NCBI RefSeq assembly: GCF_037095755.1
Contig: NZ_JBAWKJ010000001.1
Coordinates: 2,235,001 to 2,299,000 of the forward strand
Direction: 5' to 3'
DNA: 64,000 nt
Source: Sphingopyxis sp. CCNWLW2
Lineage (GTDB): Bacteria > Pseudomonadota > Alphaproteobacteria > Sphingomonadales > Sphingomonadaceae
The translations under genes were made by a program, and so were the position numbers. Below the pieces are notes generated by a model. It saw nothing but the letters and a program-made list of their open reading frames with translations, was not told the origin of the DNA and searched no databases. Each line of letters opens with the position of its first letter. Within the stretch, counting starts at the first letter, position 1. Of this stretch, positions 7,819 to 61,303 are shown piece after piece.

Positions 7819-8156
7819 CGGGCAGGGCGCCGCGACGGGCGAACCAGGGCCACACCGGAGGCTTCGGTATACTCTGATTTATCCGAATTTGCAATCAATC
7901 GTGACTGCATTGGGATTAGACTTCCCCAAGCGGTAGCCGCAGAACCACGCCTGAAGACCGGGCGCTAAAGCGGCGGATAACGGTCGATTTGGAGGAGATG
8001 GATTGCGCGATCCGTATCGGCGGCCGCGCGTAAAGGCTTGCGCCGTGGGGCGCGGCGCGCGCTCGGTCGCGTAGCAAATTCATCTAAAAACACAGCGTCG
8101 GATGGCTCGAACGTCGAGCCGTGATGTGCGCGAAAAACGACATGGGGAGGATAGAT
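7819..8156. other. upstream region of the first TonB receptor
   Basis: No gene. It contains one copy of the shared operator at 7891-7908, 248 bp before the receptor start. Confidence 0.6.
7891..7908. promoter_or_regulatory. shared operator site 1
   Basis: GCAATCA-ATCG-TGACTGC, an inverted repeat with one mismatch. It lies 248 bp before the TonB receptor at 8157. Confidence 0.55.
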
Positions 8157-10751
8157 ATGACCAAGGCAACCAATATTCGGTATCTCGTCGGCGCGTCGGC
8201 GCTGATCCTGGCGCTCGCTGGGCAATCTGCCTATGCGCAGACCGTCGATACGGCGCCCCAGGAGGGCCTTGCGGACGAGCAGGGCTCGAGCCAGAGCGGC
8301 GATATTGTCGTCACCGGCACACTCATTCGCGGCATTGCTCCCGTCGGCACCAACGTCGTCGGCGTGTCGCGCGAAGAGATCGTCGCGACCGGTGCGACGA
8401 GCGCGAATGAAATCCTCGCCAATATTCCGCAGGTATCGAACACCTTCCTGCAGGGGCCTAACCCGGGGCGTCCGATCCTGCGGTCGCTCGGCGCGAGCAG
8501 TGGCTCGACAACGCTGATCCTGATCGACGGTCACCGGGTCGTCGGCGGCGGCGGCGCCAGCGCCGATCCGGACCTGATCCCGCCGGCGGTCATCGAACGG
8601 GTCGAGCTCGTGCTTGACGGTGGGTCCGCCATTTACGGGTCGGACGCGATCGGCGGCGTGATCAACTTCATCACCCGCCGACGCTTCGATGGGCTCGAAG
8701 CCAACGCCCGCGTCGGGATCGCCGACCATTACAACGCCTTCGACGGCAGTATCACTGCCGGCAAGAGCTGGGATACGGGATCGGCTTATCTCTCCTATTC
8801 CTTCTCGCGAAACGATCCTCTCTTCGGCCGCGATCGAGACTTTGTATTCCAGGTGATCCCGAACACCGAGGGCTTTTGCGCGCCCGGAACGGTCTTCACC
8901 AGAGGCGGAACGGTGAACGGCAATGCCTATGCGTTGCCGGGCCGGACGCCCGGGATCCTGCCATGCGACAATACGGATGACGCCCAGTTCGCGCCGAAGT
9001 CGGAGCGGCACAATGTCTACGCCGGATTCAACCAGAACATAACCGACTCGATCGAGTTCGATGTTCGGGCTTTCTACTCGCGCAAAACGCTGTCGACCTT
9101 CCAGGGTCCGGTCCGCTCCCGGATCGACATCACGCCGACCAATCCTTATTTCGTGCGGATCGGCGACGAGACCTCGCAAAGCATCTTCACGTCCTTTATC
9201 GGCAATGCGTTTGAAGATCGCAGCAGGAGCGAGCTCCAGCAATATGGGGTCACGTCGACCTTGACGGCCGAGCTCGGCAGCAGCTGGCGATTGACCGTTT
9301 CGGGCAATTACCAGCGCTCGCGGTTCGAAGGCGGCCAGCCGCTGACCGATGCCGGCGCGATCGCCGCGGCGGCGGCAGGCACTACCACTGCGACTGCGCT
9401 CAACCCCTATAATCTCAGCGCCACCAATCCCACGGTGCTGGCCGGCATCCTCCGCGAGCAATATCAGAAATCGAACCAGCATATTTATAGCGGCCGCGCT
9501 ATCGCCGAAGGGCCGTTGTTCCGCTTGCCGGGTGGCAGCGCGCGATTGGCCGTGGGCGTGGATTATCTCGACGAGGCGCAGTGGGACATCGTCAACGCGT
9601 CGATCATCCCCGGGCGCCGGGCCCAGACCCCGGACACCGTCAAGCCCGAGAAGCGCACGACAAAGTCTGCCTTTTTCGAATTCGCGGCGCCGATCGTCGG
9701 GGCCGACAACGCCAGCCCGGGTCTTCACTCGCTGACCTTGTCGCTTTCGGGGCGTTATAATGACTATTCGGACTCGGAGGGGTCGTTCAACCCGAAGGTC
9801 GGCCTGACCTATGAGCCTTTCGAAGGCCTGAAACTGAGAGGCAACTGGGGCCGGTCGTTCAGCTCGCCCGGGCCTGGCCTCAAGGCTGCGTCAGGCTTCG
9901 ACCTCGTGCAGGTTTTGCCAACTGTACTTGTTCCGGGCCAGCAGGCACCCTTCGCTGCGGTCTACGCGGGCTTCGTCGACCAGATCGACCCGCAGAAAGC
10001 CACCACCTGGTCGGTCGGCGTGGACGTCGAGCCCACCGCCACCCCCGGCCTGAAGGCGAGCGTCAGCTACTATAATATCCATCTCAAGGATATGGTCGGC
10101 TTGCTGTCGACGCCTTTCTTCACCCCGGCGCTGAATCAATATGTGCGCGACAATCAGAGCTGCGCGCAGATGGGCTTCCTTAGCGGCGAGCAACAGATAC
10201 CGCTCACGATCGCAGGCCTCTGTGCGCTCAATCCGGCAACCACCTTTGCCTATTACGACCTTCGGCAACAGAATCTGGGGCAGCTGAAACAGGATGGTAT
10301 CGACTTCAATGTGGGCTATCGCCACGAATATGGCTTCGGCACAGTGCACGCCCGTGTGGCCGGGACCTACATCTTGAACCGCGAAAATGCGGTCGTTGCT
10401 GGCTTGCCGTTCGTGTCCGAATTCGACACGCCCGGTGCCAGCCGTTGGAGCGCGGTCGCTTCGGCAGGGCTCCAAACTGGCGGGCTCACCTTCTCGGTCG
10501 ATGTCAACCACCGCGCCGGCTATGACCGCAACGCCGTACCGCTCGTTCAGGCGAGCGTCGGCTCGTTCACGACCGTCGATGCGTTTGCCGCACTCGACCT
10601 GCCTGTGGCCTTTGCGCAGGACCTGCAGTTGACGTTGAATGTCACCAACCTCTTCGATCAGGACCCGCCCTTCTTCGCTGCCGATAAGGGCTTTACGAAC
10701 GGGTCGACGCTCGGACGATTGCTGCAGATCGGGATCCGTACGAAATTCTAG
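8157..10751 (+). CDS. TonB-dependent receptor 1
   Basis: An 864-residue outer-membrane active transporter. A signal peptide ends near SAYAQ (about residue 28). It is followed by a TonB-box-like GDIVVTGTLI and a plug domain (SANEILANIPQV, STTLILIDGHRVVGGG, VIERVELVLDGGSAIYGSDA). A 22-strand barrel follows, ending in LGRLLQIGIRTKF with the typical terminal Phe. Start ATG 8157 follows GGGGAGGATAGAT. Many sphingomonad receptors of this type take up plant-derived oligomers or siderophores. Here the neighbour at 10906 is a tannase-family esterase, so an ester-bearing glycoside or aromatic is likely. It is clearly paralogous to the receptor at 26523-29192 (shared LIRGIAP-x-GTNVV and FDQDPPF ... TNGST). 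Confidence 0.93.
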   Translation: MTKATNIRYLVGASALILALAGQSAYAQTVDTAPQEGLADEQGSSQSGDIVVTGTLIRGIAPVGTNVVGVSREEIVATGATSANEILANIPQVSNTFLQGPNPGRPILRSLGASSGSTTLILIDGHRVVGGGGASADPDLIPPAVIERVELVLDGGSAIYGSDAIGGVINFITRRRFDGLEANARVGIADHYNAFDGSITAGKSWDTGSAYLSYSFSRNDPLFGRDRDFVFQVIPNTEGFCAPGTVFTRGGTVNGNAYALPGRTPGILPCDNTDDAQFAPKSERHNVYAGFNQNITDSIEFDVRAFYSRKTLSTFQGPVRSRIDITPTNPYFVRIGDETSQSIFTSFIGNAFEDRSRSELQQYGVTSTLTAELGSSWRLTVSGNYQRSRFEGGQPLTDAGAIAAAAAGTTTATALNPYNLSATNPTVLAGILREQYQKSNQHIYSGRAIAEGPLFRLPGGSARLAVGVDYLDEAQWDIVNASIIPGRRAQTPDTVKPEKRTTKSAFFEFAAPIVGADNASPGLHSLTLSLSGRYNDYSDSEGSFNPKVGLTYEPFEGLKLRGNWGRSFSSPGPGLKAASGFDLVQVLPTVLVPGQQAPFAAVYAGFVDQIDPQKATTWSVGVDVEPTATPGLKASVSYYNIHLKDMVGLLSTPFFTPALNQYVRDNQSCAQMGFLSGEQQIPLTIAGLCALNPATTFAYYDLRQQNLGQLKQDGIDFNVGYRHEYGFGTVHARVAGTYILNRENAVVAGLPFVSEFDTPGASRWSAVASAGLQTGGLTFSVDVNHRAGYDRNAVPLVQASVGSFTTVDAFAALDLPVAFAQDLQLTLNVTNLFDQDPPFFAADKGFTNGSTLGRLLQIGIRTKF

Positions 10752-10814
10752 ATAAAGGGCAGCGCCGGCGCGTCGGTGCGGGCGCTGCTTGCGGTCGTGA
10801 AATACGCGTTTGCG

Positions 10815-10832
10815 GCTGCCGATACTGTTTGG
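10815..10832. promoter_or_regulatory. degenerate operator-like sequence
   Basis: GCTGCCG-ATAC-TGTTTGG is only a weak match to the shared operator. It is listed because it sits 73 bp before the tannase start at 10906, exactly the spacing of the better sites before the tannase genes at 12816 and 18383. Confidence 0.2.
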
Positions 10833-10905
10833 TTGGAAAGGCCGTGTTCTCGTTGCTCAGATGACGTGTTGGCAACGGCGGGCCTTGAAGTCGAAAGGAC
10901 AAGAG

Positions 10906-12495
10906 ATGGCGAGAATAGGGCAGCTGCGACTGGGGGGATCGCTTGTCGGGCTTGCGGCCTTGATGAGCGGCATATCCTATAGTTTCCCGGTTCCCGCACG
11001 TTCGGCCGAGGACAAGGCGCCGGCGGCGAGCGGGAGCGCGGAAACTTGTGCAGCCCTGGAGGGCCGTCAGGTCGGCAGCGCGGTCATTGACAAGGCTGAA
11101 TTTCTTGCAGTCGGCACAGCAACAAGCCCTTATGGACAAAAGGCCGCGACCGAAATCTGCAAGGTGTCGGCGCGTGTCTCGGCCGGCCCCGATTCAGAAA
11201 TCAAGATCCGCGTGTGGTTGCCGGCCAATTGGAACGGCAAGATGTACGGGGTCGGAGGCGGTGGTTTCAGCGGAAGCTTGGTGATTGACGGCATCGCGCT
11301 GACCGACCCCGTCAACAAAGGCTATGCATCCGTGGCCACCGATGCAGGGCATGATCATTCCGACAAGGTCATATGGGCTTTGAACCATCCGGAGAAGATT
11401 GCCGACTTCGGGCACCGGGCGAACCACCTTGGCGCGGTCGCGGCAAAGGCAATCCTGAATCAATATTATGGTGCTCCTGCCAAACGCTCCTATTTTCACG
11501 GATGCTCGAATGGCGGGCGGGATGCGCTCATGTTGGCGCAGCGCTATCCAGGCGACTATGACGGGATCATAGTCGGGGCACCGGCGAACAGATGGACAGC
11601 CTTGATGTCTTCGTTTCGGCGCAACGAGCAGGTCGTGCGCCTGTCGCCCGGTGTGGATACACTCGGACCGAAACTTGGGCTGGTCCACGACGCCGTGATG
11701 AAACAATGCGATGCGCTCGACGGAGCCAGGGACGGGCTGATCGGGAACCCGAACCAGTGCCGGTTTAATCCGGCGGTGCTTCAGTGCAAATCCAATGCGA
11801 CGTCGACCGCGAGCTGCCTCTCCAAGCCAGAGGTAGCCGCTTTTCGGGGCATTTATCAGGGCACGCGCACCCGCGACGGTAAATTGATCATGGCCGGCTA
11901 TTCGCCTGGCAGCGAATATCAGTGGAGCAGCTGGTTCACCAAACCCGATGGCCCGGCTCCGGGGATGGGCCGGGATTTCTTCCGCTTCATGGTTTACAAT
12001 GATCCGAAGTGGGATGAAAATTCGTTCGTGCTCGACCGCGACTATCCGCGGGCAAAACGGGACACCGGCCCGCTCGTCGATGCCACCGACACCGACCTGC
12101 GCCCGTTCCTTCGCAGCGGCGGCAAGCTGCTGATGTATCATGGCTGGGATGACGCGGCGATACCTGCCCGAAATTCGATCGACTATTTCGGTGCGGCCCG
12201 TCGCACCGCGGGATCGAGAGCCGACCAAATGCGCCTCTTCATGGTGCCGGGGATGGCCCACTGCGGCGGAGGCAACGGCCCGGGGTCGCTCGATACGCTT
12301 GGCGCGCTCGAGACCTGGGTCGAGAACGGAACGGCACCGGAACAGCTCGTCGCCACCAAATATGAAAATGAAATCCAGGCCAAGCTCGGCCAGCCGACGA
12401 AGGTGCTGAAAACGCACCCCGCTTGTCCGTGGCCGAAAACACCGCATTACAGGTCAGGTCCCGTCGAAGATGCCAGCAGTTTTGTCTGTCGATGA
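10906..12495 (+). CDS. tannase/feruloyl esterase family protein 1
   Basis: A 529-residue exported serine esterase of the tannase family (PF07519), which includes fungal tannases, feruloyl esterases and MHETase. ATG 10906 follows AAAGGAC at a good distance; an upstream in-frame ATG (10810) would bury the signal peptide. The signal peptide runs through LVGLAALMSGISYSFPVPARSA. The family's CS-D-HC arrangement is complete: Ser201 in FHGCSNGGRDA, Asp416 in YHGWDDAAIP, His452 in GMAHCGGG, with cysteines next to Ser and His. The region between about residues 215 and 400 is the lid domain that sets substrate choice. It likely removes an acyl or aroyl group from a sugar or polyol in the periplasm. It lies 154 bp after receptor 1 and may be co-transcribed. 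The real ester is unknown. Confidence 0.9.
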   Translation: MARIGQLRLGGSLVGLAALMSGISYSFPVPARSAEDKAPAASGSAETCAALEGRQVGSAVIDKAEFLAVGTATSPYGQKAATEICKVSARVSAGPDSEIKIRVWLPANWNGKMYGVGGGGFSGSLVIDGIALTDPVNKGYASVATDAGHDHSDKVIWALNHPEKIADFGHRANHLGAVAAKAILNQYYGAPAKRSYFHGCSNGGRDALMLAQRYPGDYDGIIVGAPANRWTALMSSFRRNEQVVRLSPGVDTLGPKLGLVHDAVMKQCDALDGARDGLIGNPNQCRFNPAVLQCKSNATSTASCLSKPEVAAFRGIYQGTRTRDGKLIMAGYSPGSEYQWSSWFTKPDGPAPGMGRDFFRFMVYNDPKWDENSFVLDRDYPRAKRDTGPLVDATDTDLRPFLRSGGKLLMYHGWDDAAIPARNSIDYFGAARRTAGSRADQMRLFMVPGMAHCGGGNGPGSLDTLGALETWVENGTAPEQLVATKYENEIQAKLGQPTKVLKTHPACPWPKTPHYRSGPVEDASSFVCR

Positions 12496-12815
12496 GGGAT
12501 CTAGCGGCTTTACGGTTCTGCAGTCCCGTGGATCGCCGCGAGGGGCCTTGATGCCGATCGCGTCCTATTGACCCGACTGGCTGTGCGCCTGTGCGTTCAC
12601 GCCGGGGGCAGTATGGCACGAACGGTCGTTCTTCGAATGAACCCTCGCTTGCCGGCTCTGGTCGGGGAACGGTGGACGCGGGTTGCCGAACCTCCCGAGC
12701 CATATGTCGGGGAGCTCGATACATACGGTCAGAACTGATCGTAATATGTTGATCTTGCTGCAGGAGCGTGCAACCTTTCCGTTCACTTGCAGCGAAGATA
12801 GGGCGTGGGGTTGAA
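12496..12815. other. intergenic region between esterases 1 and 2
   Basis: No gene. It contains the shared operator at 12725-12742 and an AT-rich -10-like TAATAT next to it. Confidence 0.6.
12725..12742. promoter_or_regulatory. shared operator site 2
   Basis: ACGGTCA-GAAC-TGATCGT, followed by TAATAT as a possible -10 box. It is 73 bp before the start at 12816. The core CAGAACTGAT is identical to site 4. Confidence 0.65.
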
Positions 12816-14423
12816 ATGACGACGTTTAAGCTTTTGCCGAAGATCGCGCTTTGTTGCTCGGCTGCGGTCGCTGCCGGCTGGGCGACGCTGCCCCTCGCGG
12901 CCGCGCCGGGGACGCCCACCGGCGCCGCGCCACCTGTGGCATCTGACAACACGGCTTGTGTGCGGCTGGTGGGTACGAGCGTGGGCGGAGGCCAGATCAT
13001 GAGCGCTGTTAGCGTCGCTTCCGGCGGAAGCCTCGCATCGGGGCCGTTGTCGGCCCTGAAGGCGACGGCACCCTTCTGCCGCGTGAGCGCGGTCCTGCGG
13101 CCGGTCGCGGGATCCGAAATCCAGGTCGAGGTCTGGCTCCCCGAGGCGTGGAATGGAAAGCTGCTTGCCGTTGGCGGTGGCGGCTTCAGCGGCGGACTTG
13201 ACTCGGTTGCGATCACGCTTCGTTCAGGGTTGGCTGAAGGATATGCGGGCCTCGCTACCGACGCCGGCCACAAGACGGCTGATGGCGCCAGCTGGGCGGC
13301 AGGACAGCCCGAAAAGGTGGTCGACTGGGGGCACCGGGCGAACCATGTCGGTGCGGCTTTTGCCAAGTCGCTGATCGAGGCGCACTACGGCCGCCCGGCG
13401 AGCCGGGCCTATTTCAACGCCTGTTCGAATGGCGGGCGTGACGCCTTGATGGAGGCAAATCGCTTTCCCGAGGATTATGATGGCATCATCGCCGGCGCCC
13501 CTGCGTTCGACTGGACCGGGATGACGTCTGCCTTCCTCTGGTACCACCAGACGATATTCCAGACGCCAGGGGCGGCAACGCTCCCCACGAAGATCAAGGC
13601 CGTGTCCGAGGCGATCCGTGCGAAATGCGACGCGCTCGACGGAGTCACGGACGGCATTCTCGAAAATCCGAGAGCCTGCCGCTTCGACCCGGCTGAACTT
13701 GCGTGCAAGGGCGGTGACGACAAGTCTTGCCTCACGACGGCTGAAGCGGATGCGCTGCGCAAGATTTACGACGGACCGCGCCTCCAGACCGGCAAGCGCA
13801 TCTATTCGGGTCTCGCGCTGGGCGACGAGGATATTCCGGCCAATGCCAATGGCTGGCTCGACCCCTCGCAGCAGGGAACAGGCGCCTTCGGGACGGAATT
13901 CTTCCGGTGGATGGTCTATCAGGACCCGAACTGGAAACCCGAGAGCTTCCAGCTCGACCGCGATTATCCGCTGGCGGTGCAGAAGACGGGATCGATTGTC
14001 GATGTCGGCCCCGATCTTCGGGCGTTCGCAGCACGTGGCGGCAAGCTCATCCTGTGGCACGGCTGGTCGGACGCGCGCGTTCCCGCCGACCATACGATCG
14101 ACTATTATGAAGATGTGCGGCGCAAGATCGGTGCGACTTCGGCAAAGAAGAGCGTGCGACTGTTCATGGCGCCCGGGATGGCGCATTGCTTCGCTGGCCC
14201 CGGTCCGAACAAGTTCGACATGGTGCGCGAACTCGATCGTTGGGTCGAGCAGGGAAAGCCGCCCGAGCGGGTCATCGCCACCAAATTCGACAACGACATA
14301 CTCGCGCTGATCGGACAGCCAGCCAAGACGCTCCGCACCCGGCCGCTTTGCCCATGGCCGAAGACGGCGCACTATAAAGGCAAAGGGTCTACCGACGATG
14401 CCGCGAGCTTTGTCTGTCGTTGA
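12816..14423 (+). CDS. tannase/feruloyl esterase family protein 2
   Basis: A 535-residue exported esterase of the same family, but the most divergent of the four. ATG 12816 follows GGGG-TTGAA. A signal peptide runs to about residue 34 (AAGWATLPLAAA). The catalytic triad with its flanking cysteines is present: Ser204 in FNACSNGGRDA, Asp in WHGWSDARVP, His in GMAHCFAGPGP. It ends in TDDAASFVCR, a C-terminal tail shared by all four paralogues. It has its own operator and -10-like element, so it is probably independently transcribed. The decayed fragment at 17998-18209 resembles the C-terminus of this gene (KFDNDxLALIGQP) more than the others, so this gene may have been duplicated once. Substrate unknown; an acylated sugar or phenolic ester is inferred. 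Confidence 0.9.
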   Translation: MTTFKLLPKIALCCSAAVAAGWATLPLAAAPGTPTGAAPPVASDNTACVRLVGTSVGGGQIMSAVSVASGGSLASGPLSALKATAPFCRVSAVLRPVAGSEIQVEVWLPEAWNGKLLAVGGGGFSGGLDSVAITLRSGLAEGYAGLATDAGHKTADGASWAAGQPEKVVDWGHRANHVGAAFAKSLIEAHYGRPASRAYFNACSNGGRDALMEANRFPEDYDGIIAGAPAFDWTGMTSAFLWYHQTIFQTPGAATLPTKIKAVSEAIRAKCDALDGVTDGILENPRACRFDPAELACKGGDDKSCLTTAEADALRKIYDGPRLQTGKRIYSGLALGDEDIPANANGWLDPSQQGTGAFGTEFFRWMVYQDPNWKPESFQLDRDYPLAVQKTGSIVDVGPDLRAFAARGGKLILWHGWSDARVPADHTIDYYEDVRRKIGATSAKKSVRLFMAPGMAHCFAGPGPNKFDMVRELDRWVEQGKPPERVIATKFDNDILALIGQPAKTLRTRPLCPWPKTAHYKGKGSTDDAASFVCR

Positions 14424-14883
14424 TTTCGGCGAGCGGCTGAGGCGCGCCAAGCCATCTCCCGTCGCGGCAGCGGAGGCCGCGCTCGGGTGCGTCATTGGCG
14501 GGTGGCGCGATGATTACCACCGGCTTCGGCCGCATAGCAGCCACGGATATAGACAGTGGCCGTAAAACTGATCGTCGTTTGCGTATGGGGCAGGCCGCCA
14601 ACGATCCGGCAAAATGCGATTCTTTCAATCGAGGAAGCCGCCCCGTTCATCCGTCTTGGGCGGCGGCGATGAAGAGCGAAGGCGCGTCGGCGGAATTCAT
14701 TCGCGTCGATTTGGTCTGCGGCGCGAGCGACTGGCTATCAGTAATAACATGCAGTCAAGCCCGCTTATAAATTGACAAGCAACCATGTCGCGTTATCCCG
14801 GTTGTGTCCCGGTTTTAAGCGAGTCGTTCGTATTCGCGAGCCGGGAAATGATGGCTCGAAAGCTAATCGATGGGGGAGGGCTT
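14424..14883. other. intergenic region before receptor 2
   Basis: No gene seen in about 460 bases. It holds the shared operator at 14751-14768 with a -10-like TTATAAA overlapping its right arm. Confidence 0.6.
14751..14768. promoter_or_regulatory. shared operator site 3
   Basis: GCAGTCA-AGCC-CGCTTAT; the right arm runs straight into TATAAA, a good -10 box. It is 115 bp before the receptor start at 14884. Confidence 0.65.
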
Positions 14884-17800
14884 GTGACAAAAACTGCAAT
14901 ATCACTGCGTCTTGCGTGCAGCACTGCTGCGCTGGTTCTGGCTGGCGTGACGGGGACCGTATTCGCACAATCCACAACATCCGAACCGGACGCGGTCTCA
15001 AGCACCGGCAGTTCCACGGACGCCGACGAACGTGCCGCCGACGAGGCGATCATCGTTACCGGGACCAATATTTCCGGCGTGAAGCCGGTCGGCAATCTGT
15101 CGACCGTGGTAACGGCCGACGATGCTGTTAAAGCCGGCTATTCCACCCCGGCCGAGTTGCTCCGCACGTTGCCGCAGGTCCGTTCCGGGGAATATGACAG
15201 CGACGGCGGTCGCAGCACCATTTCTCTCCAGAATTCTTCGGGCGCAAACACGGTTAGTCTTCGTGGTCTTGGGGGAAGCGCGGGCACGCTGATCCTGATC
15301 GACGGACGCCGGAGCGTCCAGGTGGGTACAAACACCAATGGAACCGAAGTGAACCAGGTTCCGCTCGCAGCTCTGCAGCGTATCGAGGTCATCGCCGACG
15401 GCGCCTCGGCTGTTTACGGCTCCGACGCCGTCGCCGGGGTGATCAACTATATCATCCGCAAGGATTATGACGGCGCCGAAGTCACATTCCGCGCGAACAA
15501 CAATAGCGGCGGCATGGAATATGGCGCGGACGCCACGGTCGGAACGAAGTGGGACACCGGCAATATATTGGTCGCCTATGGCTACACTCACCGTGATTCC
15601 GTCAGAGCCGGCAAAAGCCCCTATCTCGATTTCGACGGACGCCCTCTCGGCGGCTATGATCGTCGGATCGACGGTGCCAACGCAACGACCGGCTTCGTGC
15701 CGAACATCGTCGTTGCCGGGCCCGCCAACGCGACCATACCGCGCGCCTTTGCGAATACCTATTATGGTCTCCCTACCGGTGCCAACGTCGGCCTCAGTCC
15801 CGCTCAGCTTCGTCTGAACGATCCAAATCTCTCCGATCTCGCGGACTTCACCGACTATGTTGGCGATCTGGAGCGGCACCAGGTTGCGATCTATGCCAAC
15901 CAGCAATTGGGCGACAATGTCGAAGTCTTTCTCCAGGGCAATTATCTCAACCGAGAGACTCTGACCCGCTCGGGCGAGGGCGTAAGCTCCGTCACGCCGG
16001 TCGTCCTGCGCCAGTTCCTGCGCAACAGTGCCGGCGCCGTGACGGCGACACCCAACCCTTTTTATATCAGCGGGATCCCCGGCGTGGCCCCCGGTGCCGA
16101 TCTCAACGTGCAATATGCTACGCTGAAGGATGGTGGACCGAAGTTGTTCAAGGGCTCGGACGAGACCTATAATGTGACTGCCGGGGTGCGGGCCAGCCTG
16201 CCATTCGAGTGGAAGGTCGAGGCCTTTTATACCTACGGTCGTAACAAGGGGTGCGGCTATTGTCTCGTCGAGGGGAGCTATACCAACCCCGTCGCACTGC
16301 AATATCAGATTGATATCGGCGCGATCAACCCGCTGAGCAGCAATTCCGTGACGGCCGCGCAGCTTGCAACCTTCCGCGGCAACCAAACCCAGATTGGGCA
16401 CAATGGCCTCGATGACGCCGTTATCAAGTTCAACGGTCCGCTTTTCGATCTTCCGGGCGGCACTGTTCGGGCCGCTGTGGGCGGGGAACGCATCAAGACG
16501 TTCAATTACAATGTGAACACCTCGGTCGCCGGCACCAACAATGCGGTGGTCCAGCTCACGAACAAGGCAAACAGCCTTGCCGACCGGACTGTCTGGTCGG
16601 CGTTTGGCGAAGTTTATGTGCCGTTCGTCGGCGAGGAAATGAACGTTCCGCTCATCAAGAGTTTCGTGGTCAACGCAGCCGTTCGCTATGACGATTACAG
16701 CGACGTCGGTCAGACCACCAACCCGAAGTTCGGAGCGACCTGGGAAGTGAACGACTTCCTGACGCTTTATGGAAGCTGGGGCACCTCCTACACGGCACCG
16801 ACGCTGGCCGATCTCAATCCGTCTGCCTATGTGTCTGGAACGGTCACCAATCTCATCCAGCCCTATAACGCGGGCCAGGCGACGGCGGCAGGACGCCTCG
16901 CGCAGGTCGATCTGCGCTTCTCGCCGATCTCATTCTTGCCCGAAGCGTTTTGCGGCAACATCATTCCGGGTCAGTGCGTCATTCCGAACATGGCGCTGCT
17001 GTTCGGCGCTAATCCCAACATCCGGCCTCAAACCTCGACGAACTGGACGCTTGGCGCGGAACTGAAGCCGGGTGGCGGTTTCCGGGCGAGCATCAACTAC
17101 TATAATATCGATTTCAAGAACCGGGTCGTGTTCCCGCTGACGCTGCAGAAATTCCTTGAGGGCAGGGATCCTGGCAGCACGCCGCCGACCTATCGCGGCT
17201 ATGAGCAGTTCGTCATCCCGATCAGCAATCCGGCCACCTGTTCGAACGCCGACCTTTCGACTGCCGATCCGACCTTGCAGGGATATTTGTCGAGGCCCAT
17301 TTACGGCTCGACGAGCGGTGTGGGGGCCTTGGCCGCTTTTCCGAATTTCTGCGGCATAAAGGGACTGATCGACTCGCGCTTCATCAATCTTGGCCGAACC
17401 CGGACCGAAGGCCTGGACGTTGACCTGAGTTGGATGGGTACGGCAGGCGAGGTATCGCTCAATGCGACGGCGTCGGCGAACGTCATCTTGCGCAACGACG
17501 AGTCCATCGGCCCGGGCGCGCCCGTGGAATCGCGGATCAACCTGATCAACACGCCGATCAAATGGCGCGGGCGCGCGGGCGTGGGCGCTGCATATCGCGG
17601 TTTCACAACGACCCTGTTTGCCAACTATCTTGGGTCGTTCACGAACGACGACAATCGCGACCCGGTATTCGGCCAGAAAACCCCGATCCCGGTGAAAATA
17701 CCTTCCTACACCACCTTCGATCTCAACCTTGGCTATTCGACTGACTTCAAAGGCCGAGACGCCGGCATCCTCAAGGGGCTCAGGGGATCGATCACGATCC

Positions 17801-18291: not shown

Positions 18292-18309
18292 ACGAACAGA
18301 ACTGATTGC
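18292..18309. promoter_or_regulatory. shared operator site 4
   Basis: ACGAACA-GAAC-TGATTGC followed by AAATAT as a -10-like box; 73 bp before the esterase start at 18383, the same spacing as site 2. Confidence 0.6.
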
Positions 18310-36799: not shown

Positions 36800-36823
36800 T
36801 AAAGTCCTCATCTGGAGATCATC

Positions 36824-38923: not shown

Positions 38924-38934
38924 AGGACGATTCC

Positions 38935-40099: not shown

Positions 40100-40136
40100 A
40101 TGGGGCGGCTCGAATTGAGGATTGGAGAATAATTTC

Positions 40137-48325: not shown

Positions 48326-48343
48326 ATAAACATGCTGGATTGT
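48326..48343. promoter_or_regulatory. shared operator site 11
   Basis: On the minus strand ACAATCC-AGCA-TGTTTAT, running into a -10-like TATATC. It is 74 bp before the hydrolase start at 48251. Confidence 0.55.
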
Positions 48344-48428: not shown

Positions 48429-48446
48429 GCAGTCAATCATGCTTGC
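48429..48446. promoter_or_regulatory. shared operator site 12
   Basis: GCAGTCA-ATCA-TGCTTGC followed by AAAT; 76 bp before the dehydratase start at 48523 and divergent from site 11. Confidence 0.68.
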
Positions 48447-50481: not shown

Positions 50482-50499
50482 ACAGTCAGATAATCCTGT
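50482..50499. promoter_or_regulatory. shared operator site 13
   Basis: ACAGTCA-GATA-ATCCTGT; strong left arm preceded by AAAA. It is 94 bp before the GPH transporter start used here (50594). Confidence 0.6.
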
Positions 50500-51982: not shown

Positions 51983-53148
51983 ACGCATCATCGTCCCCGG
52001 CCCGCCGCTTGCGCGCCTTCGCGGGCCTTGCCCTGGCGCTCGGCGTCTCCGTTACGGGAGGCGCGAACGCGGCGACCGGTGGGGTTCGCGATTGCCCGCT
52101 CGCGCGCACGGCCTATTCGGCCGATACGCCTGTCATCGATCTCCTCCTTGACGAGAGAGCGAAGGCCATCGTCGAATCGGCGGGCGTTTTTGCGAAGATG
52201 CCGCCCATCGCACTGCGAACGACACCGCCCAGCTTTGCATCGATTCTCTCGCTCAGGGTCATGGCCCGGACCCTTCCGCTCGATGAGAAGATGGTCGCGG
52301 ATCTCGAAAAGCGACTCGCCGTTTTGCCGATCCGGCCCGAGGACAGCATCGCGCGCTGTGCGCGCTACGAGGCGGACAAGGCGGATGCGCTCGCCGTCCC
52401 GGCAGGCGCGCCGGCGGTCCTGATTTTCGACCGCAGCAACGGCTTTCGCGACGGGCCTTCGATTCTCGCCGCCACCGAGGCGCTTCAGGCGATCGGGGAA
52501 CGACGCGGCTGGACTTTCGTCTTCTCGAGCAGCGCCGGCGACTTTACGCCGCGCAACCTCTCGCGTTTCCGCGCCATTCTCTGGAACAATGTCAGCGGCG
52601 ACATGCTGACCCTTGGCCAGCGCGCGGCGCTTCGCCGCTTCGTCGAGCGGGGCGGGGGCTTCGCCGCCATCCATGGCTCGGGCGGTGACCCGATCTATCT
52701 GTGGGACTGGTATGCCGACGAGCTGATCGGCGCGCGCTTCATCGGTCATCCCGACGCACATCAGAAGGGCCGGATCATCGTCGAAAATCCCGCGGATCCC
52801 CTGACCGCCGGCATTGCCCGCGACTGGGCACCCGTCGAGGAATGGTACAGCTTCGCAAAGAGCCCGCGCGGGCCGCGCACGCGCGTCCTGCTCAGCCTTG
52901 ACGAGACGAGCTACAAGCCGGTTTCCGGGGGCCGCGATCTCAGCATGGGCGATCATCCGATCGCCTGGATCCGCTGCGTCGGTCGCGGCCGCTCCTTCTA
53001 TTCCGCCATCGGACACCGGCCGGAAAATTATCGCGATCCCAACAATGTGCGGCTGATCGAACAAGGTATCGCGTGGACCATGGGGCTCGCGCCTTCGGGC
53101 TGCCGCCGCGACGGTCTTATGTCTCCCTCTCTTCCCGGAACCCCGTAG
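51979..53148 (+). CDS. exported ThuA-domain protein with an N-terminal extension
   Basis: A 389-residue protein. It starts at ATG 51979, overlapping the GPH gene as ATGA. A signal peptide runs to about residue 32 (LALALGVSVTGGANAA). Residues about 35-140 form a helical region I do not recognise, with cysteines in RDCPLART and IARCARYEADKA. Residues about 145-380 form a ThuA-like class I glutamine amidotransferase fold (VLIFDRSNGFRDGPSILAAT, AILWNNVSGDMLTLGQRAAL, FVERGGGFAAIHGSGG, PIAWIRCVGRGRSFYSAIGH). ThuA proteins co-occur with ThuB dehydrogenases that make 3-keto-trehalose, and with 3-keto-glycoside enzymes. It is probably periplasmic. The reaction is not known to me. Confidence 0.82.
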   Translation: MNASSSPARRLRAFAGLALALGVSVTGGANAATGGVRDCPLARTAYSADTPVIDLLLDERAKAIVESAGVFAKMPPIALRTTPPSFASILSLRVMARTLPLDEKMVADLEKRLAVLPIRPEDSIARCARYEADKADALAVPAGAPAVLIFDRSNGFRDGPSILAATEALQAIGERRGWTFVFSSSAGDFTPRNLSRFRAILWNNVSGDMLTLGQRAALRRFVERGGGFAAIHGSGGDPIYLWDWYADELIGARFIGHPDAHQKGRIIVENPADPLTAGIARDWAPVEEWYSFAKSPRGPRTRVLLSLDETSYKPVSGGRDLSMGDHPIAWIRCVGRGRSFYSAIGHRPENYRDPNNVRLIEQGIAWTMGLAPSGCRRDGLMSPSLPGTP

Positions 53149-55238
53149 TGACCCACCCATCGATCCCATGGCGTCCGCTTTCGCGTCCGCGCTTTCTTCT
53201 CGGCATTTGCCATTTTCCCGAACAGGAACCGCGCGAGCATCTGGCGGCCGACGCCGCGCTGATGGCCGAAGCGGGGATTGAGACTGTCCGCATGGGGGAA
53301 TTCGCCTGGAGCGTCATCGAACCCGAAGAAGGCCGCTATGATTTCAGCCTCTTCGACGAGGCGATCGCGGAGCTGGCGAGCCGGGGGATCGACACCATCT
53401 TCTGCACCCCGACCGCCACCCCGCCGCGCTGGCTGACATATCGCCATCCCGACATGCTGCGCGTCGATCAGGCCGGCGTCGCGCAGCGGCATGGGTCGCG
53501 CCAGCATGTCGATATCATGCACCCGCAGTTTCGTGACTATAGCCGGCGCATTACCCGCGCCCTCGCCGAGCATTATCGGGACAATCCGCACGTCATCGGC
53601 TGGCAGACCGACAATGAGCTCAACACCCATTTTTCCGAAAGTCATTCGGCGGTGGCGCAGGACGCCTTCCGGGGCTGGCTTGTCGCGCGATACGGCAGCA
53701 TCGAAGCGCTGAACGAGGCGTGGGGGACGGTCTTCTGGAATCGCCAATATGACGCGTTCGCGCAGGTCGAGACGCCGGTGAGCAATCGGCCGGCCTCGGC
53801 CGACCCGTCGCACCTTCTCGACTATCGCCGTTTCCTCGCCGACATGACCCGCGATTTTCAGTCCGAGCAGGTCGCGATTCTGCGCGAGACGAACCCGGGC
53901 TGGTTCGTCTTTCACAATATCGGCCGGCTCAACGACATCGACCTGCGCGATTTCGGTTCCGGTCTCGATTTTCTCGGGACCGACCTCTATCCGGGACTTC
54001 GCGACGAGTTCATGAAGATGGGCCTCGGCTATGCGCAGGCGATGCAACTCGACAGCTTCCGCGGCTGGGCCGGCAATTTCATCGTCCCCGAACTCCAACT
54101 GGGCGCCGGGGCGCACCCGGCCTTTGCCATCCCGGCCCTCGAGCCGGGCGAACTCAACCGCTTTGCCTTCTCGTCGGTCGCGCGCGGTGCCGACGGCCTG
54201 ATCTGGTTTCGCTGGACGAGCGCCCGATACGGGTCCGAAGCCTATTGGATGGGCGCGCTCGACCATGACCGCGTGCCGCGCCGCCGCTACGCCGAACTCA
54301 AGCAGACGATTTCGCAGCTCAAGGCGGTACGCGACGAGGTGATCGGGACCAGCGTCGATATCGATGTCGCGATCCTCGGCGCCGACTGGGACAATGAAAT
54401 CGCGCAATCGACCTTTTCGCTCGGTCTCCCAAGCCTCGCCGAACTGGCCTTGCCGCTCCATCATCATTGCTACATGCGCAATATTCGCTGCGGCTTCGCG
54501 GCGCCCGGCGACGACCTGTCGAAAGTCAAGATCGCTTTCGTGCCGCATCTCGCGATCTGGGACGAGCGGTGGAGCGCGTCGCTGTCGCGCTTCGTCGAAG
54601 CGGGCGGCATCCTCGTGGTTGGCGCGCGCACCGCGACACGCACCGCGAACAATCATGTGTCGACCGAGACCCCGCCCGGGCCGCTTGCCGAGCTCTGCGG
54701 GGTGCGCGTTGCCGAATTCGGCCGGCTTCCGGCGCTCGGTGCAGCATCGGTGCTCTCGGGCGCCGTCTTCCAGGTCGAGACCCTGCGAAGCGGGCGCATG
54801 GCGGAATCGGCGCGGCGCGAGCAATTCGTCGATTTTGGCGGCGAACCGGTTCAGGCCCAGCACGGCTACGAGATTTTGGAGCCCGCCGCCGGAGTCGAAG
54901 TGCTGGCGCGCTGGAATGCGCGCTTTCTGGCGGGCGAGCCCGCGATCACCCGCCGCTGGCTGGGGGCCGGGTCGGTCATATACGTCGGGACCTATCTCAC
55001 GCACCCGCTGGTGGCACGGCTCTTCGAGCCCCTGTTCGCCGAGGCCGGCGTGCGGCCGCCCATGACCCTGCCCGCCGGGGTCGAGGTCACGACGCGCAGC
55101 GGACCCGGAACCGTCCTCACATTCCTTCAGAACACGACAGACGAGCCGCGGACGTTCGGCACGCCGGATGGCGCGATCGAACTACCCGCCTTCGGGTCGA
55201 CGATCTTGAGCGCGCGCGCAGCGGGGGCAGGGCCGTAA
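53148..55238 (+). CDS. GH42 beta-galactosidase-type glycosidase (cytoplasmic)
   Basis: A 696-residue glycoside hydrolase family 42 protein. The start GTG 53148 overlaps the ThuA stop by one base (TAGTG), implying coupled translation. Landmarks: RFLLGICHFPEQEP, GIETVRMGEFAWSVIEPEEG, GIDTIFCTPTATPPRWLTYR, the acid/base Glu157 in WQTDNELNTH, and the nucleophile Glu315 in FIVPELQLGAG; these agree in position with GH42 enzymes of known structure. A C-terminal trimerisation and small beta domain follow. It has no signal peptide. GH42 enzymes usually cut beta-D-galactosides, and some act on beta-D-fucosides, the 6-deoxy form of galactose, or alpha-L-arabinosides. Beta-D-fucoside would suit the D-6-deoxyhexose model. 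A terminator follows. Confidence 0.9.
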   Translation: MTHPSIPWRPLSRPRFLLGICHFPEQEPREHLAADAALMAEAGIETVRMGEFAWSVIEPEEGRYDFSLFDEAIAELASRGIDTIFCTPTATPPRWLTYRHPDMLRVDQAGVAQRHGSRQHVDIMHPQFRDYSRRITRALAEHYRDNPHVIGWQTDNELNTHFSESHSAVAQDAFRGWLVARYGSIEALNEAWGTVFWNRQYDAFAQVETPVSNRPASADPSHLLDYRRFLADMTRDFQSEQVAILRETNPGWFVFHNIGRLNDIDLRDFGSGLDFLGTDLYPGLRDEFMKMGLGYAQAMQLDSFRGWAGNFIVPELQLGAGAHPAFAIPALEPGELNRFAFSSVARGADGLIWFRWTSARYGSEAYWMGALDHDRVPRRRYAELKQTISQLKAVRDEVIGTSVDIDVAILGADWDNEIAQSTFSLGLPSLAELALPLHHHCYMRNIRCGFAAPGDDLSKVKIAFVPHLAIWDERWSASLSRFVEAGGILVVGARTATRTANNHVSTETPPGPLAELCGVRVAEFGRLPALGAASVLSGAVFQVETLRSGRMAESARREQFVDFGGEPVQAQHGYEILEPAAGVEVLARWNARFLAGEPAITRRWLGAGSVIYVGTYLTHPLVARLFEPLFAEAGVRPPMTLPAGVEVTTRSGPGTVLTFLQNTTDEPRTFGTPDGAIELPAFGSTILSARAAGAGP

Positions 55239-55806: not shown

Positions 55807-55824
55807 GCAGTCATCTTTGACTGT
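55807..55824. promoter_or_regulatory. shared operator site 14
   Basis: GCAGTCA-TCTT-TGACTGT, one mismatch between arms. On the minus strand the right end runs into GCAAATTAA. It is 26 bp before the cytochrome start. Confidence 0.7.
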
Positions 55825-55920: not shown

Positions 55921-57249
55921 TCAGCTCTTGCGAATGTCCGCCGGAAGGCCCTTGCGGGCGATCTTGCCGAGGAAGGCGGCGCTGGGCTTCGGCGTGCGCT
56001 TGAAGGTCTTCCGGTCGACCGACACGAGCCCGAACTTGGGCGTGTAGCCGTAGAACCATTCATAATTGTCGAGCAGTGACCAGTGGAGATAGCCGCGCAC
56101 GTCAATGCCCTCGCGCAGGCAGTCGAACACGCCCTTCAGCGCATTTTCGATCATGTAGACGCGCCGGCTGTCGTCCTCGGTCGAGCAGCCATGTTCGGTG
56201 ACGATAATCGGCTTCTTCGTGCGGCTGGCGACCATCCTGATCACATTGCCCAGCGTTTCGGGCGCCAGCGGATAGCCGTTCTGCGTCAGCTCGACGCCCT
56301 CGGGATATGGCAGGTCGGTGGTGGGTCCGACCAGATTATAGGTATAGTTCTGAACGCCGACGAAATCATAGTCTGCCGCCAGCCAGGGATAGACATAATC
56401 CGCGCGCTTGCGCTCGACGCCGCTCGCGCCGCTCGGCGGTGCCCGGTCGTCGGGGAGCGACAGGGTGAAGCCGACGTCGATCCGGCCGCCCGAGGCTTGC
56501 CGGATCGCTTCGCGGGCGCGGTTGTGCGCCTCGATCATGACCGGCTGCTGCACCTTCCAGTCGGACAGGGTCGGGGAGGCGAAGATGTCCGATCCCTCGG
56601 CCTTCGCCGCGGCCTTGTTGGCCGCGTCGAATGCAGCTCTTAGTCGCGGATAGGTTGGCGACCAGGCAAGCTGAGCCCACAGATTGGGTTCGTTTTGCGT
56701 GATCGCGATATCGAACAGATCTCCGAGCTGCTCGGTCACGAAGCGGCAGTAGCGCACGAAAGGTTCGACACCGGCCGGGTTGGTGAAGCCACCGGCCGAG
56801 GCAAACCAGCGCGGCACGGTGAAATGGTTGTAGACCACTACCGGAGTCATGCCCTGCTTGCGGATCGCCTCGATGACACGGCGATAATAAGCGATCGCGG
56901 CGAGCGAAAATTGGCCGGGTTCGGGCTCGATCCGCGACCACTCGATCGAGAAGCGGTGGGCATTGTAGCCGAAGGAGGCGGCCAGCGCGATGTCTTCGCC
57001 ATAGCGATGATAGGTATCGGCAGCGTCGCCCGACACTTCCTTGAACAGGGTGGGCTTGAGATGCTCGAGCAGCCAGATGTCGCTCCCGACATTGTTGCCT
57101 TCGATCTGGTAGGCCGCGCCCGCCGTTCCCCAGAGGAAGCGCGGCCGCGCGGGTCGCGCCGGCATTTTCGCTTTCGCGGCATGCGCCGCCGCCAGGGTCG
57201 CGGCCGAAGCGCCGAGCAACATGGTCCGGCGGTCGAGATTCTCAATCAT
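55921..57249 (-). CDS. GH1 beta-glucosidase-type glycosidase with Tat signal
   Basis: A 442-residue glycoside hydrolase family 1 protein. The start ATG 57249 is followed by a twin-arginine signal (ENLDRRTMLLGASAATLAAA). Landmarks: LWGTAGAAYQIEGN, RFSIEWSRIEPEPGQFS, the acid/base Glu187 in TQNEPNLW, the nucleophile Glu352 in IIVTEHGCST, and the C-terminal LDNYEWFYGYTPKFGLVSVD. The expected substrates are beta-D-glucosides, beta-D-galactosides or beta-D-fucosides. Tat export is unusual for GH1 enzymes, most of which are cytoplasmic, and would place it in the periplasm. Own operator 61 bp upstream. The exact linkage is not decided. Confidence 0.9.
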   Translation of the reverse strand: MIENLDRRTMLLGASAATLAAAHAAKAKMPARPARPRFLWGTAGAAYQIEGNNVGSDIWLLEHLKPTLFKEVSGDAADTYHRYGEDIALAASFGYNAHRFSIEWSRIEPEPGQFSLAAIAYYRRVIEAIRKQGMTPVVVYNHFTVPRWFASAGGFTNPAGVEPFVRYCRFVTEQLGDLFDIAITQNEPNLWAQLAWSPTYPRLRAAFDAANKAAAKAEGSDIFASPTLSDWKVQQPVMIEAHNRAREAIRQASGGRIDVGFTLSLPDDRAPPSGASGVERKRADYVYPWLAADYDFVGVQNYTYNLVGPTTDLPYPEGVELTQNGYPLAPETLGNVIRMVASRTKKPIIVTEHGCSTEDDSRRVYMIENALKGVFDCLREGIDVRGYLHWSLLDNYEWFYGYTPKFGLVSVDRKTFKRTPKPSAAFLGKIARKGLPADIRKS

Positions 57250-57310: not shown

Positions 57311-57328
57311 ATGGTCAATCGTGACTGT
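57311..57328. promoter_or_regulatory. shared operator site 15
   Basis: ATGGTCA-ATCG-TGACTGT; on the minus strand the gene-proximal arm runs into CATAATAT, a -10-like box. It is 61 bp before the GH1 start. Confidence 0.65.
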
Positions 57329-58928: not shown

Positions 58929-61154
58929 CTAGCGGCCGCCAGCCGCGAGCGGGACGCTCGCCTGAAGGCCGTCAAGCTTGGCCGAGGCTGCGACGCGGAC
59001 ATCATAGGTGCCGCCCACGCGGCGCCAGCCGGCCGCATCCCAGGATGCGAGGATCCGCGGATCCGCCTTGACTGTCACGCGCCGGCTTTCACCCGCCTTC
59101 AACGTGACCCTCTCCCACCCCGCGAGACGATGGGTGCGTCCCGGGGGAGCGACATAAAGCTGCGGAACATCGGTTCCTTCGCGCTTGCCGACGTTGGTCA
59201 CTGTGAAGCTCACCATGAGCTGCTTGCCGCCCTTCACCTTGAGGTCGCTATGCTCGAACCGCGTATAGCTCAGGCCGAAACCGAACGGAAAAAGCGGCTC
59301 GGCGCGTGTCCGTTCGAACCAGCGATATCCGACGTCGCTGCCTTCGTGATAATCGACCGGGAAAGGAGCGGGAGGCGGAGAAAAGAGCGTTGCCTTGGGA
59401 TCATAACCGTCGAGTTTCGGGCGCGGCAACTGGGCGACCGCCTGCGGGAAGCTGATCGGCAGGCGGCCCGATGGTGATATCTTTCCGCTGAGAATCGCGG
59501 CGATGGCCTCGCCGCCGCGCTGACCCGGATACCAGGCCTGCAGCACGGCGCTGACCGACCCGAGCCATGGCATCGATACGGGATTGCCCGTTTCGAGAAT
59601 GACCGCCGTTCGGGAGTTGGCGGCCGCGACCGCGGCGATGAGGGTGTCCTGGCCGCGCGGCAGGGACAGGTCCGCCGAATCGAAATTCTCTGTTTCCTGC
59701 TTGAGCGCGAAGACGATCGCGACCTCGGCCTTTGCCGCGGCCGCGGCCGCGCGGGCCGGGTCGGTTCCATCATCGAAGGTGATGTCGAGATCGGGGCGCA
59801 GCGCTCTCAGCGCCGCGAGCGGCGAGGAGGGTACGAACGCCCACTTGCCAAGCGACGCCATGCCGATCCGGTTCTCCTCGTTGACGATGCCGCCATAGGG
59901 ATTCACCATCGACCCGCCGCCCCCCACCAGCACGCCGATGTCGGCAAAGCCGCCGATGACCGCGACGCGGCGCACGCCCTCGAGCGGCAGGACACCCTCA
60001 TTCTTGAGGAGGACTGCGCCCGCCTCGGCCTGGGCCTGGGCGACCGCGAGATGCGCGTCGCGATCGATCGGCCCGCCGGCGCGCGCCGGGTTGTCGATCG
60101 CGCCCACGGCGATCATCGACCGGACGATGCGGAACGCCATATCGCGGATGCGCTCGCGCGGCACCGCGCCGCTTTTGACGGCGTCGGCGAGGCTGGCGAA
60201 CAGATCTTTGCCCTGCGGCGATTGCTGATCGAGCCCGGCGGCAACGGCTTTGCGCATATTATGAACGCCGCCCCAGTCGGACATCACCCAGCCGCGAAAT
60301 CCCCAATCCTTCTTCAGCACGTTGTTCAGCAACCAGTCGTTCTCGCAGGCATGGTCGCCGTTGACGCGGTTATAGGAACACATGACCGAGCCGGGCTTGC
60401 CTGCCGCCACGGCAATTTCGAATGCGAGAAGATCGGATTCGCGCGCGCCTGCTTCCGAAATGCGCGCATCCAGAACGCCGCGGCCGCTTTCCTGGTCGTT
60501 GAGTGCATAATGCTTGATCGTCGATACGATGTTTCGGCTCTGGATGCCTGCGACCGTAGCGCCTGCGATGCGGCCAGCGAGAAGCGGGTCCTCGCCCACA
60601 TATTCGAAGTTGCGGCCCCCACGCGGGTCGCGTGAGAGATTGACCCCGCCGGCAAGCATGACGTTGAAGCCCTTGGCGTGCGCTTCCTGCCCGATGACCG
60701 CGCCGACACGGTGCGCCAGCGTCGGGTCGAAGCTTGCCGCCCAGGCGATGCTCGACGGGAAGTTGGTCGCCTGGTCATCGATCCCCCGAATCCAGCCCTT
60801 CATGTTGGCAACGCCGATCGGGCCGTCGGATTCCTGCAGCGCCGGCCAGCGGAGCCGCGCGATCGAGGGCACATAGCCCGCCGAGCTGATCGCGCCCGCC
60901 GGCGGTGGCGTTCGCATGCCTTCGGGGAAGCTGTTGGCTCCGGGAGCGAATTGATAGGATGTCGCGGCGAGCGGACGGATCAGCTGCAACTGTTCCTCTA
61001 GCGTCATGGCATCCACCAGCTTGGCGGCGCGCCGATCGGCTTCGGCGTCGCTCAGCCGGGGCTTCGCGGCGGCCGCTTCATCGCTGGCAAGGCTTGCGAC
61101 CGGCCAGACGGTCTGGCTCAGCGCCAATACCGTTGCGAGCGTCCAGCGTAGCAT
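58929..61154 (-). CDS. GH3 beta-glycosidase (exported)
   Basis: A 741-residue glycoside hydrolase family 3 protein. ATG 61154 follows GGGAG at 8 bases; the signal peptide runs to SLASDEA. Domain order: N-terminal TIM barrel with ESDGPIGVANM, KGFNVMLAGGVNLSRDPRGG, KHYALNDQESGR and the nucleophile Asp293 in WVMSDWGGVHN; then the alpha/beta sandwich (VAVIGGFADIGVLVGGGGS), and a fibronectin-III-like C-terminal domain (FPFGFGLSYTRF). Likely cuts beta-glucosides or beta-xylosides in the periplasm. First gene of an operon with the carboxylesterase. It is divergent from a second GH3 gene, and each has its own operator. Confidence 0.92.
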   Translation of the reverse strand: MLRWTLATVLALSQTVWPVASLASDEAAAAKPRLSDAEADRRAAKLVDAMTLEEQLQLIRPLAATSYQFAPGANSFPEGMRTPPPAGAISSAGYVPSIARLRWPALQESDGPIGVANMKGWIRGIDDQATNFPSSIAWAASFDPTLAHRVGAVIGQEAHAKGFNVMLAGGVNLSRDPRGGRNFEYVGEDPLLAGRIAGATVAGIQSRNIVSTIKHYALNDQESGRGVLDARISEAGARESDLLAFEIAVAAGKPGSVMCSYNRVNGDHACENDWLLNNVLKKDWGFRGWVMSDWGGVHNMRKAVAAGLDQQSPQGKDLFASLADAVKSGAVPRERIRDMAFRIVRSMIAVGAIDNPARAGGPIDRDAHLAVAQAQAEAGAVLLKNEGVLPLEGVRRVAVIGGFADIGVLVGGGGSMVNPYGGIVNEENRIGMASLGKWAFVPSSPLAALRALRPDLDITFDDGTDPARAAAAAAKAEVAIVFALKQETENFDSADLSLPRGQDTLIAAVAAANSRTAVILETGNPVSMPWLGSVSAVLQAWYPGQRGGEAIAAILSGKISPSGRLPISFPQAVAQLPRPKLDGYDPKATLFSPPPAPFPVDYHEGSDVGYRWFERTRAEPLFPFGFGLSYTRFEHSDLKVKGGKQLMVSFTVTNVGKREGTDVPQLYVAPPGRTHRLAGWERVTLKAGESRRVTVKADPRILASWDAAGWRRVGGTYDVRVAASAKLDGLQASVPLAAGGR

Positions 61155-61211
61155 TTTTGTATCTCCCTCATGGCCCCGGCCCGGTGCGAGGCTTTTTCGC
61201 GATTCAAACTT

Positions 61212-61229
61212 ATAAGCAAATCTGACTGT
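61212..61229. promoter_or_regulatory. shared operator site 16
   Basis: Read on the minus strand: ACAGTCA-GATT-TGCTTAT running into TATAAG, a -10-like box. It is 57 bp before the exported GH3 start. Confidence 0.68.
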
Positions 61230-61285
61230 TTCATCGAGATTGCGCAAGAGGGGTTGTGCGATGCCTGTTGTCCCGTCGGCAACAA

Positions 61286-61303
61286 ACAGTCAATTTGGCT
61301 TGT
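61286..61303. promoter_or_regulatory. shared operator site 17
   Basis: ACAGTCA-ATTT-GGCTTGT, 59 bp before the cytoplasmic GH3 start and divergent from site 16. Confidence 0.65.

Follow-up and report, generated by a model that had tools for sequence, protein, structure and literature searches.

In actinomycetes, two autoregulated TetR-type repressors, KstR and KstR2, together control more than 70 catabolic genes for cholesterol, and their regulons have been studied by motif scanning (PMC3068626). The TetR repressor MbdR of Azoarcus controls an aromatic pathway, acts on a coenzyme A (CoA) ligase gene as well, and has a CoA thioester as its inducer (PMC4424350). Some TetR proteins bind as two dimers, among them QacR on an operator of 28 bp and CprB on one of 22 bp (PMC4150764); in Sphingobium SHPJ-2, the repressor PheR links TonB-type uptake to catabolism (PMC13273656). 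Here we describe a recurrent palindrome in 64,000 nucleotides of Sphingopyxis sp. CCNWLW2 (contig NZ_JBAWKJ010000001.1, positions 2,235,001 to 2,299,000; "the window", in whose coordinates positions are given) and in the flanking DNA. We propose, with a probability of roughly 0.87, that these palindromes are operators of a TetR subfamily, represented by two paralogues encoded to the right of the window, which would co-repress the surrounding catabolic island.

The island resembles the KstR/KstR2 system in having two TetR-type proteins with palindromic operators, found by motif scanning; however, KstR and KstR2 have 14-bp operators, one per regulator, and independent regulons, in another phylum and for another substrate, whereas in the island a single operator of about 28 bp fits both paralogues. 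The MbdR operator (ATAC-N10-GTAT, about 18 bp) is found at a few promoters and differs in sequence from that of the island, and the MbdR passages mention no TonB receptors or glycosidases, unlike the island (PMC4424350). QacR and CprB are similar in operator length, though they serve drug and butyrolactone functions; the island operator falls in the 22-32 bp range of TetRs that bind as two dimers, a likeness in length. PheR, unlike the island TetRs, belongs to the IclR family, and has a GCAACG-core operator and a role in phenanthrene catabolism. The nearest solved structures by Foldseek are the mycobacterial EthR2/Rv0078, with a TetR fold over most of the length at 26-30% identity; their regulon is not known to be related to that of the island. 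Our searches of open-access PubMed Central papers, a scope outside which most subscription papers fall, turned up no description of the operator or the TetR subfamily; within that scope, the view of the motif as undescribed, taken in a first-pass annotation of this DNA, holds.

A palindrome repeated across 74 kb

A dyad of the type RCAGTCA-N4-TGACTGT is present at all 17 coordinates that the first-pass annotation had listed, at 35479 as a half only, and a 30-bp matrix recovers every one of them. The 18-bp length given there describes the core alone; the predicted operator is a palindrome of about 28 bp with the consensus AAcWW-RCARKCA-N4-TGMYTGY-WWgTT. Across 25 sites (50 half-sites), specific outer arms are found on both sides of the core, with A exceeding T by 32 to 11 at position -5 and 34 to 9 at -4, and C exceeding G by 17 to 4 at -3. 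Two arm types, CAGTCA and CAAGCA, both occur and are mixed within single palindromes.

These sites were scored with two matrices. The first, of 18 bp and symmetrical, took its training set of 18 sites from this genome alone and was applied to the window together with both flanks; the 30-bp matrix extends this core by 6 bp on each side and was trained on 19 sites from here and 24 from Sphingopyxis sp. MSC1_008, with leave-one-out scores of at least 19.7 for its training sites. An iteratively refined 18-bp matrix pulled in coding matches (e.g., 7013 and 5871) and was replaced by the fixed training set. Over 124 kb, comprising 20 kb of left flank, the window, and 40 kb of right flank, the 30-bp matrix identifies 25 sites scoring above 10 (18 inside the window and 7 to its right), where third-order Markov shuffles predict 1.0, or 0.13 above a score of 14. 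No site above 10 was found in the flanking stretches L016 (left) and L018 (right). Seven 3-kb stretches from other parts of the genome, selected because each contains a loose match, yielded a hit in one case (L010), with a score between 10 and 12. The earlier list, though correct in its 17 entries, was incomplete: the strong site at 6715 had been missed, and the series runs 17 kb past the right window edge (64071, 65007, 69613, 70863, 74840, 80639, and 80946), for a total spread of about 74 kb.

The motif is concentrated in this stretch, an outcome that the first-pass annotation had named as support for its reading. In the genome of 4.62 Mb, all six matches to RCAGTCA-N4-TGACTGY with at most one mismatch lie within it; at two mismatches the proportion is 8 of 23, which is at the level of noise, as a control pattern gives 17 at up to two. 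For the broader pattern RCARNCA-N4-TGNYTGY, 10 of 12 exact matches are inside the island, and allowing one mismatch again yields noise (85 matches vs. 160 for the control). The two exact matches outside are C3:119278 and C3:220156. The former precedes a gene for a PETase-like hydrolase, and its 93% identical MSC1_008 counterpart is preceded by the same 18-mer, which would place one or more members of the regulon far from the island.

Though intergenic DNA makes up 10% of the island, all 25 sites are intergenic with the gene starts chosen here, in agreement with the placement first reported. This count depends on later in-frame starts for eight genes (22657, 29817, 48251, 48502, 61154, 61327, 64018, and 64789), selected where the longest open reading frame (ORF) overlaps or crowds a site; the start of the first tetR gene (64789) is backed by a 97% identical homologue of 219 amino acids, and that of tannase 4 by a domain onset at residue 166 of the long ORF. 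Sites are present in 20 of the 27 gaps longer than 90 bp, and of the seven gaps without one, five are convergent, one separates genes in the same direction, and one is a promoter gap.

Within the genus, motif enrichment is limited to the two genomes with a cluster of such TetR genes. Among 40 Sphingopyxis genomes, this one has 12 matches (control 1) and MSC1_008 has 17 (control 2), while the other 38 have 0-6 (controls 0-4); clustered TetRs at least 46% identical to the reference TetR (P0001) number two here and three in MSC1_008. Gene order at the MSC1_008 locus is for the most part the same but inverted, and many of the proteins encoded there are 77-96% identical. When 24 sites were compared (35479 was left out), 17 aligned through, of which 16 score above 12 in MSC1_008 with a matrix from this genome alone; the aligned sites are 89% identical (271/306), compared with 75% (2288/3063) for their flanks (p 5e-9). 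The segment that contains sites 6715 to 14751 does not align with MSC1_008 at the DNA level; genes thus seem either to have brought the operator with them when they joined or to have acquired it. One operator in nearly every promoter gap, concentrated at the locus and kept in a syntenic relative, supports the single regulon originally suggested. Two further TetR paralogues, 46-65% identical to P0001, are encoded in MSC1_008 at C4:163707-169057, with sites upstream at 163565 and 168272.

Two TetR paralogues and their wider subfamily

Two tetR genes lie among the sites just right of the window, at 64130-64855 and 79827-80495, both on the minus strand, and each has a comparatively weak operator upstream (Table 1). 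Their products both match TetR_N (PF00440; 51.7 and 48.3 bits, cut-off 24), are 59% identical over 192 residues, and have the same recognition helix. An AlphaFold2 model of the approximately 89% identical MSC1_008 orthologue (pLDDT 87) shows nine helices in a TetR fold, and its structural matches in both Foldseek and VIA are dominated by chains of the TetR family. The first-pass annotation recognized no LacI- or GntR-type regulator in the window and expected one of the LacI, GntR, or IclR kind to be responsible. The absence stands for the ORFs scanned, though a LysR-type gene is present in the window; the expectation does not, as the evidence points to the two TetRs just outside. No LacI, GntR, IclR, or MarR gene was found among the ORFs scanned amid the sites, which did not include every short ORF; one GntR gene lies beyond the sites (L018:19185-19808).

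The link between this palindrome and the TetR subfamily extends to other genomes. We considered 78 loci, the best 78 of 306 TetR-homologue matches, which are related and so do not represent 78 independent events. A site above 10 occurs within 400 bp upstream of tetR in 46 of the 78, compared with 33 of 1035 places picked at random within these loci (limited to those of at least 15 kb) and 3 of 78 with a reversed matrix; matrices with permuted arms gave a mean of 2.4, and none reached 46. Across the whole of these loci, 134 sites score above 12, as against 32.8 by shuffling. The motif stands directly upstream of the subfamily across Alpha- and Gammaproteobacteria with differing neighbors, and tetR is the sole shared gene in several such loci (e.g., L124, L146, and L150). 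A de novo palindrome search upstream of the TetR homologues was swamped by GC-rich chance palindromes. Among the best 120 of 477 homologous proteins (E<=1e-20), names, where given, are generic or hypothetical.

In 19 of these loci, picked mostly for gene sharing with the island, 38 of 47 sites fall within 600 bp before homologues of island genes. These precede genes for TonB receptors (20 + 2), tetR (13), GH1 (glycoside hydrolase, GH, family 1; 8), carboxylesterases (3), and AP_endonuc_2 proteins (3), where one site may count for two genes; the remaining 9, including both Brevundimonas sites, precede none of them. The loci derive from Sphingomonas, Sphingopyxis, Altererythrobacter, Sphingobium, Novosphingobium, Sandaracinobacteroides, and further sphingomonads, as well as Caulobacter, Brevundimonas, Povalibacter, Xanthomonas, and Collimonas. 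Homologues of GH3, GH1, TonB receptors, and carboxylesterases recur next to TetR-subfamily genes. Several acidobacterial TetR homologues have a variant palindrome upstream (e.g., ACAAACCGGACGGATTGT), and operator and TetR may therefore co-vary. Variants with ACAAACC-type arms were observed upstream of the acidobacterial homologues in L111, L112, L114, L117, and L123.

Competing explanations

Several observations weigh against TetR control of the whole island. The operators nearest the two tetR genes rank among the weaker ones, the promoter gap at 46714-47321 contains no site, and a fixed-spacing search found no -10 element relative to the sites, leaving promoter overlap without support. For seven of the 24 sites compared, no alignment with MSC1_008 runs through the site. 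Two further Sphingopyxis genomes, G523 and G536, encode close TetRs yet have a single motif match apiece, no more than their controls, at a distance of 7 to 8 kb from a tetR. Among the 78 homologues, 32 lack an upstream site above 10, including 5 of the 15 closest (at least 48% identity), and one permuted-arm matrix reached a maximum of 43.

Other explanations for the sites fare less well. That AT-rich intergenic DNA should simply look palindromic, by chance or composition, has a negligible probability: the sites do lie in AT-richer intergenic DNA, but the excess over shuffled sequence, the preference for A over T in the outer arms (which mere AT-richness would not produce), and conservation above that of the flanks all contradict it. 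Activation at the sites by the LysR-type protein is scarcely credible, even though no other regulator gene was recognized in the window and sites 6715 and 7891 lie on either side of the lysR gene. LysR relatives (E<=1e-30) occur in 4 of the 40 genus genomes and are absent from MSC1_008, the genome richest in the motif, which instead tracks TetR homologues in other genomes. LysR sites follow a T-N11-A pattern, which would require the fourth base of each core half-site to be T; none of the 50 half-sites has T there. With neither conservation alongside the motif in MSC1_008 nor the expected pattern, LysR was rejected as the regulator.

It is very unlikely that a regulator of another family, encoded elsewhere and unrecognized, binds the sites and that the tetR genes are mere targets. 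Dispersed regulons may have unlinked regulators, and our scan passed over some short ORFs; however, the recurrence of the motif directly before this TetR subfamily, even where tetR is the only gene in common, argues against such an arrangement. It is unlikely, too, that the TetRs bind but activate, or that the paralogues divide the sites into two overlapping regulons. A division would suit the two arm types and the number of paralogues, two in this island and three or more at the MSC1_008 locus; yet both TetRs have the same recognition helix, the arm types are mixed within single palindromes, and TetR proteins are mostly repressors (PMC4424350).

Co-repression by the TetR paralogues thus remains the preferred explanation, and as judged from sequence a catabolic regulon of the TetR type is genuine: the DNA itself shows the motif, where it is placed and how far it is enriched and conserved, and that it is linked to the TetR subfamily. 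From these we infer direct TetR binding, repression rather than activation, the substrate, and the inducer. Ligand-free TetRs would bind the palindrome in about 20 promoter gaps and repress genes for uptake (TonB receptors, symporters), hydrolysis (tannase/feruloyl-esterase-type esterases, carboxylesterases, GH1, GH3, GH42, and GH106), sugar catabolism (an L-rhamnose route and a rhamnonate-type branch), and acid activation (CoA ligases, MaoC hydratases), and probably the tetR genes themselves. The TetRs would be released, and the whole island induced together, by a product of an acylated plant glycoside that contains rhamnose; this product may be the freed aromatic or acyl part or its CoA ester. 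We also consider a broader possibility, rather doubtful as a whole: every operator of a mobile island might be shared by two or three TetR paralogues that have the recognition helix in common but differ in their diverged sensor domains; mixed dimers or pairs of dimers might then respond to a combination of ligands, such as sugar-side and aromatic-side products; and an old module of tetR, TonB receptor, GH1, GH3, and esterase genes, found in Alpha-, Beta-, and Gammaproteobacteria, might have grown by recruiting operons that carried or gained the operator.

Gene content and setting of the island

Beyond the genes in Table 1, the island encodes carboxylesterases, a PETase-like hydrolase, and MaoC-type hydratases. 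A rhamnulose-1-phosphate aldolase/dehydrogenase scores above its profile cut-off, while an L-rhamnose isomerase-like protein (639.9 bits, cut-off 646.75) and a 2,4-didehydro-3-deoxy-L-rhamnonate hydrolase-like protein (445.7, cut-off 500) fall below theirs. This gene content suggests that the substrate is probably acylated rhamnose-containing plant glycosides. The operator of a small cytochrome c gene (55391-55780) ranks among the best and is unchanged in MSC1_008; the product of this gene might take electrons from a GMC/gluconate-2-dehydrogenase-type pair at 33181-35440. The SDR/Gfo/HbpS operon (43746-47321), whose promoter gap is site-free and for which no counterpart was found in the MSC1_008 stretch, is probably a later insertion.

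Table 1. Predicted operators (18-bp core, 30-bp matrix score) and principal genes of the island, in window coordinates.
Feature	Coordinates	Strand or position	Score or domains	Remark
Operator core	6715..6732	gap CoA ligase 1 (-) / LysR (+)	24.4	
Operator core	7891..7908	before TonB receptor 1	27.5	
Operator core	12725..12742	before tannase/feruloyl-esterase 2	29.3	
Operator core	14751..14768	before TonB receptor 2	24.0	
Operator core	18292..18309	before tannase/feruloyl-esterase 3	29.6	aligned in MSC1_008
Operator core	22629..22646	between CoA ligase 2 (-) and permease (+)	18.5	aligned in MSC1_008, 8.5 there (18-bp matrix)
Operator core	24322..24339	before CoA ligase 3	34.6	
Operator core	29281..29298	before TonB receptor 3 (-)	32.9	
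Operator core	29700..29717	before tannase 4 / carboxylesterase 1	33.6	
Second operator core	29735..29752	before tannase 4	23.4	
Degenerate operator	35479..35496	before symporter operon (+)	13.2	weakest of the 17; MSC1_008 counterpart at 217335, 14.5
Operator core	48326..48343	before PETase-like hydrolase (-)	25.8	no MSC1_008 alignment through site
Operator core	48429..48446	before IlvD/EDD dehydratase (+)	30.9	
Operator core	50482..50499	before GPH symporter-ThuA-GH42 genes (+)	22.8	
Operator core	55807..55824	before cytochrome c gene (-)	34.5	18/18 identical in MSC1_008
Operator core	57311..57328	before GH1 (-)	31.3	GH1 homologues in 8 other loci also with site
Operator core	61212..61229	before GH3a-carboxylesterase 2 (-)	29.2	
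Operator core	61286..61303	before GH3b (+)	30.9	
Operator	65007	upstream of a tetR gene	16.9	
Operator	80639	upstream of a tetR gene	19.0	
LysR-type regulator	6928..7818	+	PF00126, PF03466	
TonB receptor 1	8157..10751	+	PF00593, PF07715	
TonB receptor 2	14785..17916	+		
TonB receptor 3	26523..29192	-		
Fourth TonB receptor	81016-83373			right of window
Two tannase/feruloyl-esterase-family genes	10810..14423	+	PF07519	
Tannase/feruloyl-esterase-family genes 3, 4	18383-19969, 29817-31412		PF07519	
CoA ligase 1	4738-6459	-	PF00501, PF13193	
CoA ligase 2	21036-22550	-	PF00501, PF13193	
CoA ligase 3	24662..26425	+	PF00501, PF13193	
Symporter and sugar-catabolic genes	35564..43553	+	AP_endonuc_2, Gfo/Idh, FAH, D-LDH, SGL	
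GH42	53073..55238	+		
GH1	55921..57249	-		
GH3a	58929..61154	-		
GH3b	61327..63591	+		
GH106 alpha-L-rhamnosidase	66160-69609			right of window

Conjugation genes (CagX, TrbI) are found to the left of the island, at 2475-4480. To its right, L018:4700-18277 (approximately window 88,700-102,280) encodes a strawberry-notch-type helicase, a YAcAr/SLOG protein, LuxR, and a LuxI autoinducer synthase, with a weak ParB match; TrbI/CagX homologues (62-73%) and a homologue of the ParB region also occur near the MSC1_008 locus. No tRNA was found in the 124 kb scanned. A conjugative element with quorum sensing may thus harbor the catabolic island, and because the island seems to lie among conjugation genes, the whole regulated pathway may move between strains.

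These data tie an uncharacterized TetR subfamily to a probable operator, a gene set, and a plausible class of substrate, the acylated rhamnosides of plant phenolics. Searches with the operator could reveal esterases, receptors, and glycosidases under shared control in other genomes, and the operator could serve to build sensors for such compounds.

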